Source of the DNA: Chromera velia
Taxonomy: Eukaryota; Sar; Chromeraceae
Length of the DNA stretch: 64,000 nt
Direction of reading: 5' to 3'
Assembly (NCBI GenBank): GCA_018398765.1
Contig: JAHBMJ010005780.1
Span: forward strand, 1-64,000
Part shown: in pieces, positions 658 through 60,738 of the stretch
Position numbering within the stretch: position 1 is the stretch's first letter
Layout: every line of letters begins with the position of its first letter
Made by a program: the position numbers and the translations under genes
Notes under the pieces: generated by a model
Told to the model about the DNA's origin: nothing
The model's input: the letters and a program-made list of their open reading frames with translations, nothing else
Databases searched by the model: none

Positions 658-23455
<22,798 letters not shown>

Positions 23456-32059: not shown

Positions 32060-34358
32060 CATGCCGTGGCCCCCGGCCGACGGTATGTTAAAAGTAGTAT
32101 AGTACCCCCCTAAGCTCAAGTACATGCCAAAAGTTTGCGAGGTTGCAATAGAAATATTGAGCTCACCGCCAGGCCTAGGCGCCGGCATAGGTTTGTGCCC
32201 TAGAAGCGTACACCATAGGGTCAGAAACCTAGGCACCGACCAAAGCCACCTGACACGGAGGCCGGGTCGTCCAGACGGAACCTCGATCGATTGCTAATTG
32301 ACTAACGCCAGGCCTAGAGAGGCAAGCGTACTCAAGCAAGGGAAGCGAAGACCCGGAAGAACCGAGGCCGGACATAATACTGAAAGGCGATGCTCTTCTG
32401 TTACCGAAAGAAACCCAGAGAAGAAAAATCCCGTCCAGAGACACGACAAGTCACGCATGCATACTTCAGAAGGAAACTCACGAAAAGCATGACATAAAAG
32501 AAACCACAAGAAAAAACATGGATGCAACATAGGTAGAGCGCAAGTGAGAGCGGTGCCAGAAAGATCCTGAAGTCAGGGCCAAAGCACACCACTCCACGAT
32601 TCACCTAGCTCTCTGTCCGCCTGAGACCATTCGCCTAACGTAATGATGTCCCCCATAATCCTTGTCAGATAAATCAGCTTCGGCAGAACACAGAAACGGA
32701 AAAGGAGGTGGGCTCCTTAGGGGTCGCCATACTCTTCCACTGCCTGGCTTAACTCCTGCACCTCTTTCAGCTTTTTATCAAAGTGTGCACTCTGATACTC
32801 TGTAGTCCCACTGGCCACCCCGTAGAGTCGGAAACCTTTAAGGGATGGGGTGATTCCAGGCGGTGATAGGTATGTGCTCGGACATTCTTTGAGCCCTTAC
32901 CACGAAGGTGAGTGGACCAAGCTCTTGTTAGGTCGCAGGGTTAACCCGAAACTCTGCAACCTGGCTGCGCTCGCCCTCCACGCATGTAGGATGCTGTTAT
33001 CGTGTCCGTCTGTGGGGATCTGCTGGAAAGGATGGAGGGGGAAAACCATAGATACGTCGTCCATGAAGGCGCCAACGAAACACCCCCTTCCCCCGTGCTT
33101 TGCCTGCAAATCCCCCAGCAACCCGTCTAGGGAAGGCTTTAGCCCCATGCAGAAGAGAAAAGGACCCACCACATCCCCCTGTTGTACCCTTTCTTCGCAT
33201 GTGATCCTCCGAAGGAGCCCTGACTGGTCTCTGAAGACTAAGTCTGAAGGAGTTCCATACCATAAAGTAAAGAAAGAATACAACTGGGGGAAATGAGTAT
33301 GAACCTGGTCTATCATCACCTGCTGGTCACATGCATTGAAGGCGTTCGATACGTCTAAGTTCAGCACAGCTGACGAGAGGGACCGCTGCAAGCACGTCTG
33401 CACACAACGGAACAATTTCTCTGTGCCTGCCCTTGTGCGTACTGCAAACTACAAGGGGCCCAGGTACCGCTCGAACTGCACGCTACTGCACGCCAAACTC
33501 CAGCAGGATTGCCCTCGTCACCCACCAACGAAGGACGTCCCCTACCACAATGGGTCTCACCTCTGTCCCTCTAGCATTTTTATTTAAGGCGAAGCACCTG
33601 CCCCCTGCGAGCAGTGAGATAAAACCCACTGGGGCGTCTCCTCTTGCAAGACATGTGGCAATACGAAGGATGCGCGTCTGCGCTGAGCCGTCTCTGGGGA
33701 GAAAGTAGCTCAAGTGTTCGTAACGCCATCCCGTGACCCCCTGTACTAATCCCTTTGGCGCAAACCTGATCGCTTCAAGCAGATTGTCGCGAGACAGTGT
33801 GAGCAGAGGAGACTGAGAGCCTGAGGACTGTGACTGAGAGTCACTCTGGGGCAGGCCCCGGAGGAGAAGAGGGTGGGCTCTACACGGAAACATACCTGCT
33901 ACCTTCCTGAAGGTAGCTGGTGATGCTGGGGCCACCCCGAAGGATTGGAGATGGGAGGCGGCTTTTGACAGCGCCTCCTCCTCTATCAGACCCTACACTT
34001 GTTTCCATTTGGAAACCAGGTCGTCTTCCGTACGTTACTAGGTGGAACGACGCCCCCTCCTCTCCTGGCCCTTCCGTTGTCTCTCCCTCATGTGCACCAC
34101 GTCCTCCCGCAGAACTTGCACTAGCGACTCAAAGTCTCCCTCCTAAAAGGCTTTGATCTGCCGCCTGCATGCTGACAAGGAAGCAGGTCCCCCTTGTCGC
34201 AATAGACCGCACGTGGCCAACGGATGTCAACCATGCAATCAGCTAGATACCGTGTGGCCGCCGCGGCGGAGCCGGCCAACAAAATTTAACAGTTTATGAA
34301 CTTTTGGGGGCCACGGCATGCTCCCCGGGAGCATTTCAGTTGCATGCCGTGGCCCCCA
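32060..34358. mobile_element. Retroelement relic bounded by CATGCCGTGGCCCCC motifs
   Basis: CATGCCGTGGCCCCC occurs at 32060-32074 and 34343-34357 in the same orientation and inverted at 34306-34320. The last two form a hairpin. A broken minus-strand reverse transcriptase lies between them. The flanking motifs are seen directly; that they are the element ends is inference. Combined direct and inverted terminal motifs recall tyrosine-recombinase retroelements (DIRS/Ngaro type), but no recombinase was found. Confidence 0.5.
32590..33960 (-). pseudogene. Decayed retroelement reverse transcriptase
   Basis: Read from high to low coordinates, the fragments give: a finger/palm segment (FAPKGLVQGVTGWRYEHLS, then EVRPIVVGDVLRWWVTRAIL) at about 33935-33483; a palm segment with LNLDVSNAFNACDQQ, VQQGDVVGPFLF and FMDDVSMV at about 33415-32897; and a thumb-like segment (FRLYGVASGTTEYQSAHFD, then FRFCVLPKLIYLTR) at about 32830-32640. 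FMDD replaces the usual YxDD, and ERVQQGD the usual GVQQGD. The fragments lie in different frames, and a stop lies in the thumb part, so it is not expected to be active. No endonuclease or RNase H was recognised. Similar polymerases occur in LINE-like elements of protists, fungi and plants. Confidence 0.82.
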
Positions 34359-34359
34359 A

Positions 34360-35590
34360 GCCACGGTATCTGTAGCCCAAACCGAAAGGTAAAATAAAGG
34401 TAAGGTGAGCCTGACCCCCTGCCTTGAATTTCACGCGAACGGTTCTGTCTGCTTCGCACAAACTCTGCAGACTCAGTGTAGATCGAGGTTGTAGTGCATC
34501 CACTGTGTAGGGACAGTGCTTTGACGTCGATCTTGCTGTGATTCCTTCGAGCCTCATTCTCAATCTGGAGCCAGGATGGTCCAGCTGTTCATTGAACCAG
34601 TCACCTTCATTTATTTCTTGTGGAGACGGTATTTCTTCATACAGTTCCGTCTCTCTTTCATTACCGTAACAATCGGCGCTCTGGCCTCTGTATCCCTCGG
34701 GCAGTATCTCCCGATGGGGGTACTACCGGTGGAGTCTCTGAAACAGTCAGGACCGAACCCTCTATCAAGGGGGCAAATGAGTTTGGCGATTTCGTTCGCA
34801 ACAGAAGTCCCGGTGGCGCTTCAATGGTAGTCGATGTAGCCCTTCAACCTCTAAGCAGACTCCTTCAGACCACAGGTTGGTTTTTCTCCTTTTCCCTTTT
34901 CCATTTTGTCAGATAAAATCGATCTAAGTCGATCCCGTCTGAACACTGCCTTGGCTCTCTGTTTCCCGCGTGACAGCGTCAGCCGCATACGTGACTAGTT
35001 GGTGACCTGTCTGGAACGTATGTTATGGAAGGAAAGACGGTCAGCGGAGATGGTTCTTTCGAAATCCCTCTGGCTCTTTTCTTCTGGGGTCGCTCACGCG
35101 ATCCGTTTCGTTGCCTGGCATCCTGCTGAACCTCCCTGTTAACTTCCCAGAGACACTATTCAGGAGACAGACGCAGAGAGGTAGACAGATAGACAGACAG
35201 GCAGGCAGGCACAGGTAGGCAGGCAGGCAGGCACACAGACACAGACAGACAGACAGACAGACAGACAGATAGACAGACAGACAGACAGACAACGTGACTT
35301 CTTTTTATCTTTTTTTGTTCTGTCTCTTTTTAAATACAACAAACAGACAGCTTTAGAGACAGATGGGGAGGTAGATTCCAGGGAAGGATAGAATGAGTGA
35401 GATAGAGGGAACGAAACGTCTTCTTTTTATTTAAAAATTCCCTTTTTTCTCTCCTTAGTCTCTTTCCCTCCCTCTCTTTGCATCTCTACCTTCCCGCCTG
35501 AATGCCTTTGACTGAACTGTGTCGTCACTTGATCCTGCGAGTGCAGATCCCCGGAAAGGGTCCAGTAGCGTTGCTCTGAGGAGCAGTTTA
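34360..35590. other. Unassigned stretch with a (CAGA)n array
   Basis: No gene was recognised. A CAGA/CAGG tetranucleotide array occupies about 35165-35291. The rest is ordinary-looking non-coding sequence with short open frames. Confidence 0.5.
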
Positions 35591-37681
35591 AGACTGCTCC
35601 AAATGCCCGATATCCCCAATTTGAGTGCCATCGCCGACCTCAGCCGGAACCCCCTTGAGAAGCCTAATGAGGAGGAAAAGAACCCTCTTCCCACTACTGA
35701 CCAGATCTGGAAGGAAGGCCAGGCTCAAAGGGGCAGACTGCTCCAAATGCCTGATATCCCCGATTTCAGTGCCATCACCGACCCCAGCCGCAACCCCCTT
35801 GAGAAGCCTGATGAGGAGGAAAAGAACCCTCTTCCCACTGCTGACCAGATCTGGGAGGAAGGCCAGGCTCAAAAGGGCAGACTGCTCCAAATGCCTGACA
35901 TCCTCGATTTGAGTGTCATCGCCGACCCCAGCCGCAACCCCCTTGAGAAGCCTGATGAGGAGGAAAAGAACCTGGAAAAGAACCCTCTTCCCACTGCTGA
36001 CCAGATCTGGGAGGAAGACCAGGCTCAAAGGGGCAGACTGCTCCAAATGCCCGACATCCCCGATTTGAGTGCCATCGCCAACCCCAGCCGCAACCCCCTT
36101 GAGATGCCTGATGAAGAGGAAAAGAACCCTCTTCCCACTGCTGACCAGATCAAGGAGGAAGGCCAGGCTCAAAAGGGCAGACTGCTCTAAATGCCCGACA
36201 TCCCCGATTTGAGTGCCATCGCCGACCCTAGCCGCAACCCCCTTGAGAAGCCTGATAAGGAGGAAAAGAACCCTCTTCCCACTGCTGACCAGATCTGGGA
36301 GGAAGGCCAGGCTCAAAGGGACAGACTGCTCTAAATGCCCGACATCTCCGATTTGAATGCCATCGCCGACCCCAGCCGCAACCCCCTTGAGAAGCCTGAT
36401 GAGGAGGAAAAGAACCCTCTTCCCACTGCTGACTAGATCTAGGAGGAAGGCCAGGCTCAAAGGGGCAGACTGCTCCAAATGCCTGACATCCCCGATTTGA
36501 GTGCCATCGCCGACCCCAGCCGCAACCCCCTTGAGAAGCCTGATGAGGAGGAAAAGAACCCTCTTCCCACTGCTGACCAGATCTAGGAGGAAGGCCAGGC
36601 TCAAAGGAGCAGACTGCTCCAAATGCCTGACATCCCCGATTTGAATGCCATCGCCGACCCCAGCCGCAACCCCCTTGAGAAGCCTGATGAGGAGGAAAAG
36701 AACTGTCTTCTTACTGCTGACCAGATCTGGGAGGAAGGCCAGGCTCAAAGAGGCAGACTGCTCTAAATGCCCGACATCTCCGATTTGAATGCCATCGCTG
36801 ACCCCAGCCGCAACCCCCTTGAGAAGCCTGATGAGGAGGAAAAGAACCCTCTTCCCACTGCTGACCAGATCTAGGAGGAAAGCCAGGCTCAAAGGGGCAG
36901 ACTGCTCCAAATGCCTAACATCCCCGATTTGAGTGCCATCGCCGACCCCAGCCGTAACCCTCTTGAGAAGCCTGATGAGGAGGAAAAGAACTGTCTTCTT
37001 ACTGCTGACCAGATCTGGGAGGAAGCCCAGGCTCAAAGGGACAGATTGCTCTAAATGCCCGACATCCCCGATTTGAATGCTATCGCCGACCCCAGCCGCA
37101 ACCCCCTTGAGAAGCCTGATGAGGAGGAAAAGAACCCTCTTCCCACTGCTGACTAGATCTAGGAGGAAGGCCAGGCTCAAAGGGGCAGACTGCTCCAAAT
37201 GCCCGACATCCCCGATTTGAGTGCCATCGCCGACCTCAGCCGCAACCCTCTTGAGAAGCCTGATAAGGAGGAAAAGAACTGTCTTCTTACTGCTGACCAG
37301 ATCTGGGAGGAAGGCCAGGCTCAAAGGGGCAGACTGCTCCAAATGCCTGACATCCCCGATTTGAGTGCCATCGCCGACCCCAGCCGCAACCCCCTTGAGA
37401 AGCCTGATAAGAAGGAAAAGAACCCTCTTCCCACTGCTGACCAGATCTGGGAGGAACTTTAAGGCCAGGCTCAAAGGGGCAGACTGTTCTAAATGCCCGA
37501 CATCCCCGATTTGAGTGCCATCGCCGACCCCAGCCGCAACCCCTTTGAGAAGCCTGATGAGGAGGAAAAGAACCCTCTTCCCACTGCTGACCAGATCAGG
37601 GACGAAGGCCAGGCTCAAAGGGGCAGACTGCTTCAAATACCCGACGTTCAGTGAGGGACTCTCAAAGAGTAGGCTAGGCAT
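35588..37681 (-). CDS. Possible minus-strand repeat protein (48-residue units), unproven
   Basis: The minus strand is open from about 37714 to the stop at 35588, through every copy of the 144-bp repeat. The first ATG in frame is at 37681; upstream of it the frame only offers GTG, so an earlier exon would be needed for a longer product. Each unit reads like LEQSAPLSLAFLPDLVSSGK followed by a hydrophobic LFLLIRLLKGVAAGVG segment. CAA-to-TAA changes that break the plus-strand reading are silent on the minus strand (TTG to TTA, Leu), and length changes are multiples of three. No similarity to a known family was recognised. The alternative is that the ancestral coding strand was plus and has decayed. 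Confidence 0.3.
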   Translation of the reverse strand: MPSLLFESPSLNVGYLKQSAPLSLAFVPDLVSSGKRVLFLLIRLLKGVAAGVGDGTQIGDVGHLEQSAPLSLALKFLPDLVSSGKRVLFLLIRLLKGVAAGVGDGTQIGDVRHLEQSAPLSLAFLPDLVSSKKTVLFLLIRLLKRVAAEVGDGTQIGDVGHLEQSAPLSLAFLLDLVSSGKRVLFLLIRLLKGVAAGVGDSIQIGDVGHLEQSVPLSLGFLPDLVSSKKTVLFLLIRLLKRVTAGVGDGTQIGDVRHLEQSAPLSLAFLLDLVSSGKRVLFLLIRLLKGVAAGVSDGIQIGDVGHLEQSASLSLAFLPDLVSSKKTVLFLLIRLLKGVAAGVGDGIQIGDVRHLEQSAPLSLAFLLDLVSSGKRVLFLLIRLLKGVAAGVGDGTQIGDVRHLEQSAPLSLAFLLDLVSSGKRVLFLLIRLLKGVAAGVGDGIQIGDVGHLEQSVPLSLAFLPDLVSSGKRVLFLLIRLLKGVAARVGDGTQIGDVGHLEQSALLSLAFLLDLVSSGKRVLFLFIRHLKGVAAGVGDGTQIGDVGHLEQSAPLSLVFLPDLVSSGKRVLFQVLFLLIRLLKGVAAGVGDDTQIEDVRHLEQSALLSLAFLPDLVSSGKRVLFLLIRLLKGVAAGVGDGTEIGDIRHLEQSAPLSLAFLPDLVSSGKRVLFLLIRLLKGVPAEVGDGTQIGDIGHLEQS
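35597..37645. repeat. 144-bp (48-codon) tandem repeat, about 14 copies
   Basis: A 144-bp unit is repeated about 14 times with roughly 90-95% identity. Departures in length are multiples of three: 12 extra bases near 35970 and about 6 near 37457. On the plus strand the unit reads as an acidic peptide (QMPDIPDLSAIADPSRNPLE, then KPDEEEKNPLPTADQIWEEG), but TAA or TAG interrupts about half of the copies. On the minus strand all copies stay open. Confidence 0.93.
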
Positions 37682-37714
37682 GTCATAAAACAAAAGGGAA
37701 AGGGATGTATTCAC

Positions 37715-39898
37715 CTCATGCAGAGAGGGAAGGGAAAAGATCTGCGACTTACAACCAGGTAGATTAGACCCGCTACAAAAATAGGGCAGAGACGTACTGC
37801 AGTAACTGTTGAATGGTATATACTTGTGAGTATACCTTTATCTTTCCAGCAGTCCGTGCGGCGCCCGTCTGTCATTAGAGGGTATCATTGCTGGAAGATG
37901 TTACTGAGGGTGAAGTGAATGAGATTCGTGTGAATTTTGATAATCAGATAAAGAAAGAAAAAAAGAAGAGAGAGAGGTCAGTGTGAGAAGATTAACGGAT
38001 GTGAGTGAGCAGCATGGATGGATGGAAGGGGTGAGGTCCTGCTGGCTGGTTGTCTTCTTCGTTTGTTTGTTTGTTTTTTTTCTCCTTGTTGTATCTTCTC
38101 TCTCTCGACTGATCGAGATTTCCATCCTTGTAAGGTCTCAATCTTCGATCAATTGATCGTTCTTCTGCATGTTTTTTTATTCCAGCCTGTTGGGTACCTG
38201 TGTTGATCTGTCTTTCGAACGTTTATCTCTTCTTTTTTTTGTTTGCCTCTTCACCTCTATTCATCTTTCATTCTATCTATCCTTTCTTTTCTACATGAAG
38301 AGCATTTCCTATCTGTTGTTGCATTCCTTTGGGACCAGTTTGAAAAAGGCTTGAAAGAGCTGAACCGGCATTGCCAATACAGAGATTCTGCCTAGCTAAC
38401 ACAAGGAGATGAGAGGCTCGATCAACCTACAAGTAAGTAAGTATGTATGTCATTCAATTTCAAATTGGTCGAGGTTGGTGATGGCCACAGCCTTGAAGGG
38501 GTGCGGGGGAATCAGTGTGTAAGGGCGAGTGCAGAAAAGAATTAAAGGATGGAATGCATGTGGGAATAATGATGTGCCACGTGACAGCCAGGGGTCTGCT
38601 TTCCTTCCTTCCTTCCTTCCTTAGGGGGGGATTACCACATGGCTGGTCGACGGAGTGCAAGATCAACGGAAGTCTTAGAGAAAAATACTGAGCCAGCTGC
38701 AATATCGTCTGTAAACCAGCTGCAATATCGTCTGTAAGCCCCCTGTGTGTGTCGAAAGTGACTTCTTTTCTCCCCCAGTTGTTCCTCCTTTCCGTCGAGT
38801 GGGTAATACGATTCACATACAATAGAAAATTGTCAATGCAGCCAGCCGTTGACTGGGCAAAAAGGAAAGAAGAAAGAGGGAATACAGAAAATGACAGAAA
38901 AGTACACAAAATTTTGACTTGAAAGGAAAACGAATGAGAGAAGTACCTCTTGCATACTCTTGTTTTACATCTTGTGAAGTCAATTGGATCGTCGTTTTTT
39001 CCTGCATGCATGCATGCCCCAATTAAGCATCTGTTTGGTATTAATTTGCCAGCCCCTCGCTGACAAAAAAAACACACACCTGGCAAGGTGACCAATGTTT
39101 TTTTTCCTGTATACCGTTTGCAACACCCGAAATTGTAACACGTTTTTTCCTGCTTGGCAGTGCAGCAACTTATGTCCATGTCGAACATTGTCAGGCTGAA
39201 TGTCGGGGTAACACCCATCCACTGGCTTTTTTTTTCGTAGTTTAAACACTGTTTTTATTCCGGCCTACTTTTTGTTGATCCAAGTGAAAAGAAATTTAGA
39301 AAGAAATGCAAGTCATGATTGGTCCTCAAAGAATCAGCGGCTGCTCTTCTAGGGGCTAAGTTAGGGCGTTGGCTGCCCTAGCTTTCCTTTGATCGCCATC
39401 ATGCATTTATATAGACCAGACTGTAGAAAGACAAAAGCAAATCATCGTCAGACTGAAAGTTTATGAATAAGTTCAGAACAACTGTTAGAAGAACTCTGTT
39501 ATAAACAACAAGAATGCGTGGCCCCTCCACGTTTATTGTAAAACATCCATTCCGTGCGTTACATCTAGTAGTAGCGTTATAACAGTTTTGTTAGCTTTTG
39601 ATCGATTTTTTTATTCCTAGCTTTATTCCTATCTAGATTCATATACTAAATACGAAATTTTACTAGACTAAGTTCTTACAAAATATTAGAAACTACGTAC
39701 TATTTAGTAAAACTAAGTCAGAAAGTTAGTTAGTCAGTTGAAGGATGTCTAATCCTAAGCAGCAAGGCCTATATAACCCCAGTTGAAGCACTAATGAAAC
39801 TCCCACATGGTCGACTAGCAAATTAATAAATCTAGAGCAAAATCATTTTTTAAAAAAATAGAATTGATAATTATATAATGATTATGACTAGGATTATG
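37715..39898. other. Unassigned intergenic stretch
   Basis: Open frames up to about 250 codons exist on the minus strand (38460-39218), but the translation has no recognisable domain and is cysteine/phenylalanine-rich in a non-protein-like way. A short TTCC run lies near 38603. The stretch becomes AT-rich beyond about 39300. Confidence 0.4.
38693..38737. repeat. 22-bp tandem duplication
   Basis: CCAGCTGCAATATCGTCTGT plus AA occurs at 38693-38714 and again at 38716-38737, one base apart. It lies in sequence without a recognisable gene. Confidence 0.9.
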
Positions 39899-50055: not shown

Positions 50056-53000
50056 GCCAAGGGCATGAAGGAACGACACAGAAGGAACGGCCGAGCGGCA
50101 GGCGGGAAGGAAGAAAAGGCGACAGAAAGACGCCGAAGTGCAGAGGGAAACAAGAAAACAAAAGAACACAACACTGCGCCCCCCGGGCCCCCTCACTGAC
50201 CGACCCTCTCGATGCTCTCCGAGGCCTCCTGAATTCTTCAGCGGGGGGGGGGACAGGGGAGACAGGGGGGCGGTGGAGGGCTCGGGGTTTGCCTTTGCGT
50301 CACTGGAGTTCCTCGGAAGAGGGAGAGGAGAGAACTTGGTCTCGCCTTCCTCCGTTTCCCTCCCCCCCTCCTCCAGTGAGCCGGTGGGCCCTCTGACGGA
50401 AACTTCATTTTCACTCCCGCTTCCCTTCGTTCGTTTCTTCGAGGGCCCAGGGGGGGGGAGGCAGGGGGAAACTGAGAGAGGCGAAGCAGACAGGCGGGAG
50501 AAGCCTACAGCTGCCCCGCTTCTCTCTCCCCCCTCCTGCTCGGTCCCTGTCCCCCCAAGCAGCGCCTTCCGGTTGCCGTACAAAGGGGAGGCGACAGAGG
50601 AAGCGAGACAAGGACTGCGGCTGCACGGACAGTCACTCACTCACTCACTCACTCGTTCAAGCTTCAAGACAGATAAGGGAGTATCATTGATTGATTGCAC
50701 CTTAATTGTTTTTGGGAGGGGCGAATGCGGGGAAGGAAAAGAAGAAAAAGGAGAATTTTGTCTCGGGTGTATGTGCAGGGCGTTTCCAAAGGAATCGAAT
50801 CGGCAGCAGAAAAAAAAAGGAGCCGAACAGAGAAACAGAAAGCCGACTGACTGACTGACTGACTGACGCTACTGCAGTTGCTCCATTGAGGACTCTGAGT
50901 GCGGTGATTTCGTTTCGGAGTTTTTCTGCCGTTCTTTCCATTTCTGCCTTTTCTTTCTTTGCCGTCTCCCTTTCCTGTTCCAACATCTCCACCTCGTCCA
51001 ACCTCCCCTTCACGACGGCCTCCAAAATCTCCACCCTCTCCCGAAGACCGTCCGCCTCCGCTCTTTCCGCAGCTCGGTCAGATTCCAGACTCGTCAGCTC
51101 TTCTCTGCACACACACACACACACACACACAGAGAGAGGGGGGGGNGGGGGGGGGGGGGGGATCTGAGTTAGGCAATAGTGTTCCCTCTCACAAATTCTT
51201 TAGGGGAATGAATGCGTGTAGAGAAATTACAGGTCAGTTGTCAGCCTGATTCAGAAACGGAGGGAGACCTTGCCTCCAGCCCCCCTATTTCTTTTCCTTC
51301 TGACTATGCAGTCAAAAAAGGAGAGAAAACCAGAAAGAACAAAACTGGACAGCGAACCCACCGCCCCACCCCACGTACCTGAGTTTGCCTCTCTCCATCC
51401 TGAGTCTCTGTGTCTCTGCAAGCGCCGTCTCCCTCTCCCTTCTCAGAGACCGTCCCACCTTCTGCTCCTCTTCCAAAAGTCTCCTCAAGTAGCTCTCTCT
51501 TTGTCTGCAGTCATGCAGTCATTCATTTGAAAAAAAATTCTGTGTTTTGTATATCGTACTATTTCAAAGCGTGTATCTGCGTATGTATGCGCGTGTGTGA
51601 GCACAAACAATGCTCACGTGGAAAGAAAGAACACGCAGGCACAGAGGGACCCAAGGAAGAAAGGAAGCCCAGCATGCATGCAGAATCAAGGACATACACC
51701 TCCCTCCATCTCACAGTGATCGATCTTCCCTCTGTCTCCCTTCTCTCTCTCGTTGGCTTGACACCTCGCTTGCCCAAAGAAGAAAAGAGGGAAAAGCAAC
51801 GAGACGAAGGAATTTCCGTCACACATCCACGCAGAGGGGGCAACGGGAAGAAGGCCAATTAAGGGAATACCCAGCCAGCCGAGTGGGGGCAAAGCTAAGA
51901 GGAGAGGAGGATACATGAACAGAGAAGAGGGTGGGTGGTGCATTATGCAAACATCAAGTGTGCGGTTGGTTACCTTTTTTCCTGTGTGTCCATCCATCCT
52001 ATCTGTCTATGCTTGCCTGCCTCTGCCATCCCTGTAGAGCGAAGAGATTGGGAGGCACCCCACCCCACGACTGACTCTGCTTCTTTGAGTTGACGCTGTA
52101 GTGTTGAGACTTGAAAGCTTTCCTTCTCCCTTTCCTTCTCTCTCTCTGTCTCTGGGTCTGGTCGTGCTGATTGAATTTCCGTCTCCATGTCTCCTCTTTT
52201 TCCCTCTGCAGCCAGCTGCTGCTGTTCCTGTACAACAAGCTTTGCGGACATGAGTCTGGTCTCCTCCCTCGCTGCTCTCACCGCCGTCTCTGCCTCCTCC
52301 GCCCTCCTCTCAAGCTGCCGCACGAGAAAGGTCTGCTCCTCCACGAACGTCAACCCAAAACCCGGACACACCCGCCCCCCTGCCCGGGAAAGAGACGAAG
52401 AAGACGAAGAGCCCCCCGTATCCGCCGAGACAGCGTAGTGACGTCTCACAGCCTCCAGGACCGCCTCTCCGTTGCTGCATTTATTTTCATACAGAATTCA
52501 TATAAATCATCTGTACGAAAATAAATGCATACACAGCGTCCAGAACTGCCTCTCCGTTGCTGCATTTATTTTCATACAGAATTCATATAAATCATCTGTA
52601 CGAAAATAAATGCATACACAGCGTCCAGAACCGCCTCTCCGCTGCTGCATTTATTTTCATACAGAATTCATATAAATCATCTGTACGAAAATAAATGCAT
52701 ACACAGCGTCCAGAACCGCCTCTCCGTTGCTGCATTTATTTTCATACAGAATTCATATAAATCATCTGTACGAAAATAAATGTATACACAGCGTCCAGAA
52801 CCGCCTCTCCGTTGCTGCGGTTCGGTTCGTACATGGCAGGCAAAATTGTATTTATTCGTGCATACATGAACTGTATGTATATTTGCATGAGAGCCCGACA
52901 AAGACTTTTCTGTTCCCCGACGAAGAGAGAGAATCAGAAGCAAAAAGCAACTGCACACTATTGGTATCCCGGACCCCTCTCTCATCTTGGTGGCTGTCTC

Positions 53001-53227
53001 TGGTCAGTATCAGGCTCAGCCAGCTTCACTCTATTGTGATCAAACCATCGGGAAAGGGAGTGAAAAAAAAACACCGACAAGTAAGCAGACAAATGAGAGA
53101 CAAAAGAGGCAGACCTGAGATGAGCACAGAGCAATTCACAAGCGTTCTCGAGGGAATGGGCTCTGAGAGAGTTACTATCGGCAACCGCCTGCATGCATGC
53201 AAAGGAAAAGAAAAAACAAACATCATC

Positions 53228-53267
<40 letters not shown>

Positions 53268-53702
53268 CTCCCTGCAGGGGCAAGAAGTGGTTACATGAAG
53301 AGAAAAGATGTCACCTCAGGGAAAGATTGAGGGAGACAAAGAGAATTTTCACGCAGAGGAGCCGAGAAGCAAAAGCAGGGAGGCGAACAGCGAACGAATT
53401 TTGAGCGAGCGCAGAGGCCCTCCTTGCACCCTCCCACCCACCCATCCATCCGTTCATCCCCCCCCCAGACAGACAGACAGACAGACAGACCTGCACAGCC
53501 TCCACCTCTGCCCTCAGAGCGTCCCTCTCATTCCGAAGACTTGCCGTCTCCAATCTGTTCCCACCCAGATTCAAATCTTCCACCTGAAGGAAGGAAGGAA
53601 GGAAGGAAGGAAGGAAGGGAGGAAGGAAGGAAGGAAGGAAGGGAGGAAGGGAGGAAGGAAGGAAGGAAGGAAGGGAGGAGAGAAGAGAACCCCAACCGCA
53701 GG

Positions 53703-58600: not shown

Positions 58601-60738
58601 TTATTATCGTCATTCACCCTCCACACGGACAGACAGACAGGCTGGCTGGGCAGGAAGGGAAGGTCGACTGACTGACGCGACGTGTCGGTTTGTGACTCCT
58701 CTCCTGAATATGCGGAAGGCCTCGCTGGCACTGCCGACAGGGGGACGCTGGAGTCCTTCCACATACACCTGCTCCGATCGTGCATGCACCATGCCCCACA
58801 ATGTATTTTTTGACGCACACGCAAACAGATGCAGACACTACATTTTGCATTTTGAACGCATCGCTCGTTTCTTTTCTGCCAACAGATGTCCATCGCAAGT
58901 GCCTTCTTTGTAAAATCCTGAAGGAGGAGACGCAGAGAGACGCAAATGACACGCTGCAAAGGGGGCAGCAAAGAGGAAAGGGGTGTGTGTGGTCCCCCCC
59001 TTCCTCCCTCTCGAATTTGACAGCAGAGCCTTGCGTGCGAAACAAAAGAAGCAAACAAACAGACTCTCTCAGAGAGAGAGAGAGAGAGAGACTGACCCCT
59101 TCAGGAACCTTCTCCCTGATTTGAAGTCTCTCGCTCGTTTGACTGAGCAGGTCGAAAATCTGCATTCGATTCCATGGGAAAGGGACAGACACTCAGGAAC
59201 GAAGAAAGAAGAGAACGGAAGGAAAGTGGGAAGGGAAGAGAGAAGAACCCAAAAAAGGAAAACGGACGGCACTGCAATCAAGCGGTCTGACAAAAATTAC
59301 GCGGAAGAAAAAAGATTTCAGAATGGCAAAGACGCAAATGGCATTCGACCCAGAAGGGCGAAGGAAAGGAACACACGAATCTCCAACAGACATGCAGAGA
59401 AAAATCATTTGTGCATGCACAAACTTGCTCCATCGGTCCTCGTGAAGCAACCACGAAGGAAGGTGTGAAGAATTCAACAAACAGACAACCGACGTACGTA
59501 CTTGTTCGTTGTAAATCTCCAGGCAAGACACATCTTTTTTTTTTTTGAATGTACATGCATATGAATGCAAAGACTTACTTGTTCGTTGTAAATCTCCAGG
59601 CAAGACACATCCACCAACCACTCAGTACAGCTGTCTGAGGGAGAGGAGATGCGTGAGAAGAGGTACTCCATTGCCTGCATGGACCCAATAGAGAAAGGGA
59701 GGGGGACAGATAGACAATCACGCACAAACACACACTTCTCTCACACGCTGCAGCGCTGGTTTCCCTTCTCTTTCCCCTTTCTTGTCCCGAGAGAGATTTT
59801 TTTCGTACATCAGCTGCGCCGCCTGACTTCTGTCAGAACGTTTCCGTTCACAGCCTCCCCCTTCCCTTTCTCTCACCCTGTTCCTGTCTTCACTACCTTC
59901 CCTTGCACTTACTTTCCGTCTCTTTCCCTCCATCCCTCCTTTTATTCGTTTTCCCTTCGTCATTCTTTGACCGTCCCCGCATCTCCCGCCCATTTCCTTT
60001 CCTGTTCTCTTCTCCCGACTTCCCTCTCTCACGCAGCCTTGCAGCCATCGTCCTCCCTCCTTCCCTCCTTCCGATAATTACCCGACTGACTGACTCACTG
60101 ACTGACTGACCCGAGGAAGCAGGCCCCTGGTGGGCGACTCGGTGGACAGAGGCTCGGCCTCCCCCTGCATTGTGTACGTCTTCCCGCTGCCCGTTTGGCC
60201 GTACGCAAACACGCACGCATTGTATCCCCTCAGCACGGCGTCACAGCAGGAGACGCCTGCAGAGGAGAACACTGCCTCCTGGGAAACGTCTGTGTCGAAA
60301 ACACCATCGAAGAAGAATTGCTGCTTTCCCCTGTCATAGTCGACTCCCTTATTGTTCTCCAGAATCCGGACACACCGCCTGTCGTCTGACGTGGGCCTGC
60401 GAGCACAAGATCAATGAGAATGGACGAACGGAGCCAAAAACCGGACTGGTGGAAGAAGGGAAAGATTAACATATGGATGACGAGGCGTCAGACGGCGAAG
60501 AAGGTACCGAAAAAGCAGTGAGAAAAGAATCGAAAAGGAGTCAAAGGAAGGCACCCAATCATCGGTATGAAATGAAAGAAGACAGAAAAGCGGAAAGAAA
60601 CAGGGGAAGGGCACAAGAGGGAGAGGAGGAGAGGGGCCAAAGACAGAGAGCTCGAGTGAATAAATCAAGAGATACAGCACACCAAGACGCTTCCAGAACG
60701 CACCTTGCCCGGAGGAAAACTTTGATGTGTGAATCCAT
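40922..60738 (-). CDS. Kinesin-12/KIF15-like motor protein, about 36 exons
   Basis: The gene encodes an N-terminal kinesin motor, a long coiled-coil stalk and a disordered tail. Kinesins hydrolyse ATP to move along microtubules; the kinesin-12 (KIF15/PAKRP) class acts on spindle or phragmoplast-type arrays. Class assignment rests on the motor at the very N-terminus (KVFLRARP), the order [36 protein letters not shown] and DLAGSERQ, and a long coiled coil behind it. The ATG at 60738 starts an 11-codon first exon that supplies the beta-1 strand and splices in phase to the P-loop exon. Exons 1-35 sum to 4947 nt (1649 codons) without a frame conflict. The terminal exon (40922-43458) has a frame problem at a C10 run and an NN assembly ambiguity, so the C-terminus is uncertain. 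Kinesin identity is firm; the kinesin-12 class is probable. Confidence 0.88.
45539..45570. repeat. (CA)n microsatellite in kinesin intron 31
   Basis: An uninterrupted CA run between exons 31 and 32. Confidence 0.95.
47067..47198. repeat. (CT)n / CTGT compound microsatellite in kinesin intron 27
   Basis: About 130 bp of CT repeat with CTGT interruptions lie just downstream (minus strand) of the exon 27 donor. Confidence 0.95.
50022..50054. repeat. (CA)n microsatellite in kinesin intron 21
   Basis: A pure CA run next to the exon 22 acceptor. Confidence 0.95.
51106..51162. repeat. (CA)n followed by a poly-G run with an ambiguous base
   Basis: A CA run just upstream (minus strand) of exon 20 passes into a G run of over 20 bases containing an N at 51146. 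The region is intronic, so coding is unaffected. Confidence 0.9.
52463..52822 (-). repeat. 85-bp tandem array: 27-nt exon copy plus 58-nt hairpin intron
   Basis: Five copies with an exact 85-bp step (landmark at 52463, 52548, 52633, 52718, 52803). On the minus strand each unit is ATGCAG, then a 27-nt copy of the start of exon 18, then GTATGC. The 58 nt between copies begin with GT, end with AG and have 19-nt inverted-repeat arms (TGCATTTATTTTC[G/A]TACAG) around a 16-nt loop. The copy at 52474 continues into the body of exon 18. See findings. Confidence 0.93.
53585..53684. repeat. (GGAA)n microsatellite in kinesin intron 15
   Basis: About 100 bp of GGAA/GGGA units; on the minus strand this is the TTCC-rich polypyrimidine tract before exon 16. 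A GA run follows at about 53708-53740. Confidence 0.95.
54995..55673. repeat. Polypurine tract (GAAA/GGAA)n of about 680 bp in kinesin intron 11
   Basis: The plus strand is almost exclusively purine over about 680 bp (GAAA, GGAA, GAGA units). All six frames give long low-complexity open readings (Lys/Glu/Arg or Phe/Leu/Ser), which are not genes. Confidence 0.95.
57629..57660 (-). repeat. (GTCA)n array continuous with the exon 7 donor
   Basis: On the minus strand, exon 7 ends at 57661 and the intron opens with seven GTCA units. Each repeat unit itself reads GTCAGT like the donor. Confidence 0.9.
59502..59611 (-). repeat. Tandem duplication of the exon 3 end and donor
   Basis: A 33-nt segment ending GAGATTTACAACGAACAA occurs at 59611-59579 (end of exon 3, then GTAAGT) and again identically at 59534-59502 (then GTACGT), 77 bp further into intron 3. 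The spacer contains an A12 run on the minus strand. Confidence 0.9.

Follow-up and report, generated by a model that had tools for sequence, protein, structure and literature searches.

A tandem array at a kinesin exon start in Chromera velia and its probable descent from a genome-wide class of hairpin inserts

We analyzed a 64,000-nucleotide stretch of the Chromera velia genome, referred to here as the window, in which the start of a predicted kinesin exon (exon 18) is repeated in tandem together with a short hairpin-forming spacer. This array most plausibly derives from one member of a genome-wide class of hairpin inserts that was later multiplied in tandem, a reading to which we assign a probability of roughly two in three. 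We regard the class as a variant of templated insertion with duplication and see in it an unusual way for exon copies and splice acceptors to arise. It joins two questions, namely how new introns and small exons originate and how filler sequence enters repaired breaks, and it suggests a testable route in which a single repair or writing event duplicates a splice acceptor along with the first codons of an exon. This one genome offers very many natural events, two of them with empty-site paralogs.

Anatomy of the kinesin array

The initial annotation described five copies of the first 27 nt of exon 18, spaced by 85 bp on the minus strand, and all five are present, starting at the upper coordinates listed in Table 1. 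TRF gives a period of 85, 4.4 copies, and 97% matches; the copy number is that of the assembly and may be off. The spacers, said to run over 58 nt from GTATGC to ATGCAG, end in ATGCAG in all four cases and begin with GTATGC in three, while the 5'-most one begins with GTATAC. Their proposed hairpin, with its G-U wobble, was recovered, but with other dimensions than the 19-bp stem and 16-nt loop first given: the unit adjacent to exon 18, folded as a 59-nt piece, pairs over 20 bp, one of them G-U, around a loop of 14 nt (-25.5 kcal/mol; z, -7.8). The claims on phase and divergence agree with our reading of the sequence. Predicted exon 17 stops two bases into a codon, which means that a 27-nt copy leaves the reading frame unchanged, and the copies differ by few substitutions, one of which, GCG to GCA in copy 4, is silent.

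The gene can indeed be called a kinesin gene, as it holds a piece of the motor domain (PF00225; E value, 2.4e-13); a protein search for a kinesin relative found none at an E value of 1e-20 among 8,000 scored candidates. An Rfam search of positions 52200-53300 returned 21 matches up to an E value of 1, all of them to microRNA-precursor families and all under the curated cut-off, the best being mir-5014 with 36.2 bits against a cut-off of 101.

Table 1. Positions of the array components, of two other features of the window, and of related arrays elsewhere in the genome
Feature	Position	Strand	Basis or source
Kinesin exon 17; ends after two codon bases (AG), donor GTCTGC	53115..53188	-	Sequence; limits predicted
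Copy 1 of exon-18 start; host acceptor gaaccgcag ahead, GTATAC after	52788..52814	-	Sequence
Hairpin unit 1, 58 nt, GTATAC...ATGCAG	52730..52787	-	Sequence
Copy 2 of exon-18 start	52703..52729	-	Sequence
Hairpin unit 2, GTATGC...ATGCAG	52645..52702	-	Sequence
Copy 3 of exon-18 start; CAACGG to CAGCGG	52618..52644	-	Sequence
Hairpin unit 3, GTATGC...ATGCAG	52560..52617	-	Sequence
Copy 4 of exon-18 start; GCG to GCA, silent	52533..52559	-	Sequence
Hairpin unit 4, 20-bp stem and 14-nt loop	52475..52532	-	Sequence, folding
Copy 5, the true exon-18 start; exon continues unbroken; differs from copies 1-4 at GTT/GTC and GAC/GAG	52448..52474	-	Sequence
Reverse transcriptase fragment, PF00078, E value 8.9e-9	32900-33448	-	Profile match
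Two identical 36-bp direct repeats around a 41-nt insert; 12 T at its plus-strand start (A run on minus)	59499-59611		
Diverged array, related arms TTCATTTACTTTCATACA, 51-bp repeats, 100-bp period	L108, ~7120-7250		Unselected sequence
Five-copy acceptor array, anatomy like that of the window, 97-bp period, no GT at copy ends	G000:C3776:39000-40300 (L103)		
119-bp T-hairpin unit, at least 24 repeats in two blocks; 54-bp repeat array before and between; one N	G000:C3687:10700-15300 (L102)		

Hairpin inserts and their direct repeats across the genome

A genome-wide search for units with the same arms had been proposed, and it succeeded for the arms but not for the interior. In the window's own genome (177.8 Mb in 4,040 contigs), the 20-nt arm TGCATTTATTTTCRTACAGA has 2,564 matches with up to 3 mismatches (1,321 + 1,243), against 24 (14 + 10) for a reversed-pattern control. 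The 38-nt interior of the window hairpin, the one interior searched genome-wide, matches at up to 3 mismatches the four window units alone. Unselected sequence from four contigs, 36 kb in all, holds three matches to the arm when up to 5 mismatches are allowed; two share one diverged array (Table 1), and the third has no clear repeat. Taken together, the genome-wide matches and the unselected sequence put the number of loci in the thousands or near, with a wide error. Further arrays of the same kind occur on contigs C709, C710/C2063, C222, C505, C3776, and C3687. Profile searches gave 58 matches to the light-harvesting family PF00504, which marks the host as photosynthetic, and none to the photosystem family PF00124, perhaps because plastid sequence is missing from the assembly.

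Direct repeats flank nearly all of the elements that we examined. Among 111 arm-bearing elements in 86 loci, a set that leaves out one merged array row without a repeat (L010), 103 have a flanking direct repeat with a score of at least 16, and none does when the right flank is reversed; at a score of at least 12, the counts are 107 and 3. These elements were chosen for near-perfect arms and for their match to the window, mostly on contigs listed before C2982, so the sample is not random; the element calls, like the splice-site tests below, follow simple rules of our own. Considered with the 2,564 arm matches, the repeats place the pattern far beyond chance and show that it is not local. Since they consist of host DNA and are absent from the control, the exon copies are target duplications. 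The window array has the same structure as the other elements, its hairpin lying between two 28-29 bp stretches of exon start. Once repeats with an arm inside them, or with the same first 20 nt as another, are dropped, 96 unique repeats of 17-95 bp (median, 40.5) are left, with a mean identity of 0.959, around inserts with a median of 65 nt. Some insertions look recent, as 26 of the 96 repeats are identical.

As in duplication at a staggered break, tens of base pairs are duplicated in these 103 elements and stand as a single copy in the empty sites of two paralogs. In a kinase gene on C678, a 33-bp target is followed by a 95-nt insert and a second copy of the target, whereas the paralog on C320, with a 98% identical peptide, has a single target and no arm; the DNA alignment of the two crosses the target unbroken, with small indels elsewhere. 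The insert-bearing kinase copy has an in-frame TGA and may therefore be a pseudogene. Fifteen loci were queried for paralogs, and a match spanning the insertion site was obtained for one of them (L094): its more distant paralog on C34, at 75% identity, runs without interruption for 107 bp across one target copy and has no insert. Another match, on C1825, extends over the L035 repeat and roughly 12 bases past it, and the remaining ones lie in repeat-like flank.

The inserts are mosaics of a 24-nt sequence, T (TGCATTTATTTTCATACAGAATTC), in both orientations. Measured by exact 8-mers over 96 rows, T or its complement covers a median of 62% of the insert. The blocks are arranged most often as '><' (25), '><<' (13), '<' (13), and '>><' (10), and their TGCA end usually points outward; a single block was counted in 16 of the 96 inserts, which may include decayed arms. 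After CATACAGAATTC, TT starts 24 of 38 contexts, often running into another partial copy of T. It would seem that the arms are constant and that the interiors are composed anew at each event. At the host junctions, the arm end could be located in 111 of 170 cases, 54 of them with extra bases between arm and repeat and 57 without. The junctions favor TGCA microhomology: in the 57 clean ones, at least 2 nt are shared with the T end in 33 (expected, 4.2) and at least 4 nt in 20 (expected, 0.3). A scan of 216 kb for pairs of direct repeats with a spacer found T-like inserts in 45 of 51 pairs by a loose test (up to 6 mismatches), a figure that says little because the loci had been preselected for T.

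Splice sites in the repeats and in the kinesin gene

Splice sites are enriched 1.8- to 2.4-fold in the repeats of 85 elements, which are the 96 minus inserts of at least 110 nt and array-internal rows; window rows are absent from these counts as well as from the junction and acceptor-frame counts. Of the 85 elements, 21 have an acceptor (YAG with a pyrimidine-rich lead) at the repeat start (G offset, -1 to 7); shifted positions of the same loci give 0.104 per element. Acceptors deeper in the repeat (offset, 8-24) were found in 21 of 85 (against 0.176 per element), donors inside it in 10 of 85 (against 0.049), and any such site in 45 of 85 (against 0.296, the 1.8-fold figure). Either an encounter of the process with TGCA at acceptors of the form (T)GCAG or better survival of splice-preserving insertions could account for the enrichment. 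Given that 64 of 85 elements fail the acceptor-at-start test and that the any-site figure is only 1.8-fold, it may reflect the survival of harmless insertions.

In the acceptor-type set, the AG is kept in both copies; it comprises 42 rows from 36 loci, 6 of which are counted on both strands, where at most one of the two rows can be correct. An open frame follows the second acceptor in 35 of the 42 rows, and retention of the insert in the mRNA would break the frame in 30 of these 35. Several insertions are located next to or within exons encoding portions of conserved domains, namely kinase, thioredoxin, EGF_CA, and DnaJ, the last at a donor; the peptides were read by eye among those listed from 405 open reading frames over the joined empty sites of the 85 elements. 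Such positions make it likely, as far as sequence can tell, that the acceptor moves to the last copy as a rule. The thioredoxin-type locus on C222 fits this rule, since its first copy reads TTGCAA, without an AG, and the later copies read TTGCAG or CTGCAG.

For the kinesin gene, too, an acceptor shift is the probable outcome. The TGCA at the hairpin end, together with the duplicated G, would recreate a 3' splice site, and the usual mRNA would join exon 17 to the last acceptor, at 52474. The original protein would thereby be restored and the array absorbed into intron 17, which would span 53115 to that acceptor. A rival reading is one of functional tandem microexons, in which the 58-nt hairpins are GT-AG introns and zero to four nine-residue units are alternatively spliced to tune the kinesin stalk. 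In the window, copies 1-4 do have their own GT donors (GTATGC in three, GTATAC in one) and AG acceptors, their 27 nt preserve the frame, and the stem would juxtapose the splice sites. With in-phase copies and such donors, some inclusion of one to four 9-residue units is conceivable here, if doubtful. A functional role of this kind seems unlikely to us, because the copies are target duplications of a widespread insert and because few acceptor-type rows (2 of 35 with an open frame and 4 of all 42 by our own short donor list) have a donor-like GT close to where copy 1 ends, so the match in the window may be luck; the comparable array on C3776 has none (Table 1). The same rarity led us to reject the exon-intron unit as the usual arrangement of the class and makes movement of the 3' splice site likelier than a hairpin serving as an intron. 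The related proposal of the initial annotation, a self-multiplying exon plus hairpin-intron unit, survives in one half: the exon start and hairpin have multiplied in tandem, and further arrays exist. The idea of a self-made exon-intron module does not, as the hairpin is one of a genome-wide class of inserts and the exon copy is a duplicated target, which is borne out by the flanking repeats and the empty kinase site.

Origin of the inserts and relation to known systems

The sequences of the elements show target duplication, a shared template, its use in mosaics, microhomology, and later tandem growth. We infer the rest: a break with staggered ends and the enzymes acting there, the extension of each end by a copy of T, and a joining step between the two copies. 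At the acceptor of kinesin exon 18, such a break would expose about 28-29 bp of the exon start. T would then be copied onto both break ends, helped by TGCA microhomology, and the copies would be joined in the middle; repair of the staggered ends would leave the hairpin flanked by two copies of the exon start. The unit could grow to four by unequal recombination or slippage. Copies 1-4 are closer to one another than to copy 5, which suggests that the unit multiplied after the first event and probably once that event had aged slightly, a light argument given that it concerns two of 27 positions. RNA copying, DNA copying, foldback synthesis, and an odd transposase are the template routes in view; were the template an RNA, a small RNA ending in GAAUUCUGUAUGAAAAUAAAUGCA would be a candidate source. 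The model as a whole, with T-templated insertion and duplication, tandem growth, and splicing to the last acceptor, appears to us a probable one.

Among other origins, the one we take most seriously is a LINE-type route, in which a reverse transcriptase would retropose an RNA with a UGCA end, priming at both nicks and leaving unusually long target duplications. This route is possible, although we favor it less than the model above: it would explain the template mosaic and the priming-like TGCA junctions, and the window holds a reverse transcriptase piece (Table 1), next to which an open frame at 33486-33992 matches no Pfam family. The window also contains an insert with a 12-A end between identical 36-bp repeats, which resembles a small retroposed piece inserted with a long duplication of its target and has no arm match at up to 5 mismatches. 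Against this route, no poly(A) tract was seen to end any of the hairpin inserts listed in the block analysis, and priming at both ends is itself deduced. Slightly more tentative is a dedicated writing system, in which an enzyme with a short fixed template would write the 24-nt sequence onto each end of a staggered break where TGCA occurs, acceptors included; such a system would duplicate 20-60 bp, move or double 3' splice sites, and, where circumstances allow as in the kinesin gene, create a microexon and a hairpin intron able to multiply. An ordinary MITE, that is, a nonautonomous DNA transposon with terminal inverted repeats amplified later in tandem, would account for a high-copy-number shared arm, inverted termini, and insertion with target duplication. 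We set it aside as improbable, since the duplications are long and variable in length where a fixed length would be expected, the window interior is unique, the interiors are mosaics, and some inserts show a single block by exact 8-mers, decayed arms perhaps included. A minisatellite derived from the exon by simple slippage, without any mobile or templated component, fits the regular 85-bp array and is valid for the step from one unit to four, but as the origin it is scarcely credible, being refuted by the direct repeats and by the same arms beside other host sequences throughout the genome.

Templated insertion with duplication has partial counterparts in known systems. Among them are introners, for which published accounts give duplications of 3-9 bp (PMC9860276) or, in Amoebophrya, direct repeats of 3-5 nt and inverted repeats of 8-20 nt (PMC7789003). 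According to these accounts, introners share with the hairpin inserts many genic copies, inverted repeats through which the ends of the intron can pair, direct repeats left by insertion, and a splice site partly supplied by the insert. In contrast, the 96 repeats of the hairpin inserts measure tens of base pairs, and no single body is common to the class: the arms are shared, the window interior, the one searched genome-wide, does not recur outside the window, the interiors are mosaics, and acceptor-type copies rarely offer a new donor. Hairpin inserts may nonetheless act like introners in favorable cases. Our literature search, with subscription papers and preprints outside its scope, found no report of such an element in Chromera, and the word "chromera" is absent from the main text of PMC9860276.

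A second counterpart is the formation of small tandem duplications from staggered breaks, a subject also of Vaughn and Bennetzen (2014). In mouse cells, staggered breaks with 43-49 bp overhangs give tandem duplications in which the duplicated stretch approximates the overhang (PMC8355091); the portions of that study on these events describe no constant inserted sequence, whereas the junctions of the hairpin inserts carry a mosaic of a fixed 24-nt sequence. The writing of a fixed template into breaks also has a parallel at telomeric sequences. Chromerid telomere repeats are of the TTTAGGG type. Breaks can receive telomerase RNA sequence, with microhomology at the junction, and among interstitial telomeric insertions a duplication accompanies 6 of the 130 rodent loci and 4 of the 25 primate loci (PMC2246262); the hairpin insert, however, does not look telomeric and appears to be written from both ends. 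One sequence serves very many sites in the hairpin inserts, unlike the inserts at repaired breaks of yeast and Drosophila, whose templates are usually local. The likeness to the latter lies in the short templated or inverted inserts themselves, as reported in studies on yeast (PMC11724301) and on polymerase theta in Drosophila (PMC2895639).

Elsewhere in the window, a 144-bp tandem repeat (35591-37645; 14 copies, 91% matches) lies within a minus-strand open frame of 749 codons (35588-37837), and a plus-strand exon at 13843-15042 matches a domain of Not1, a subunit of CCR4-Not (PF12842; E value, 6.5e-11).
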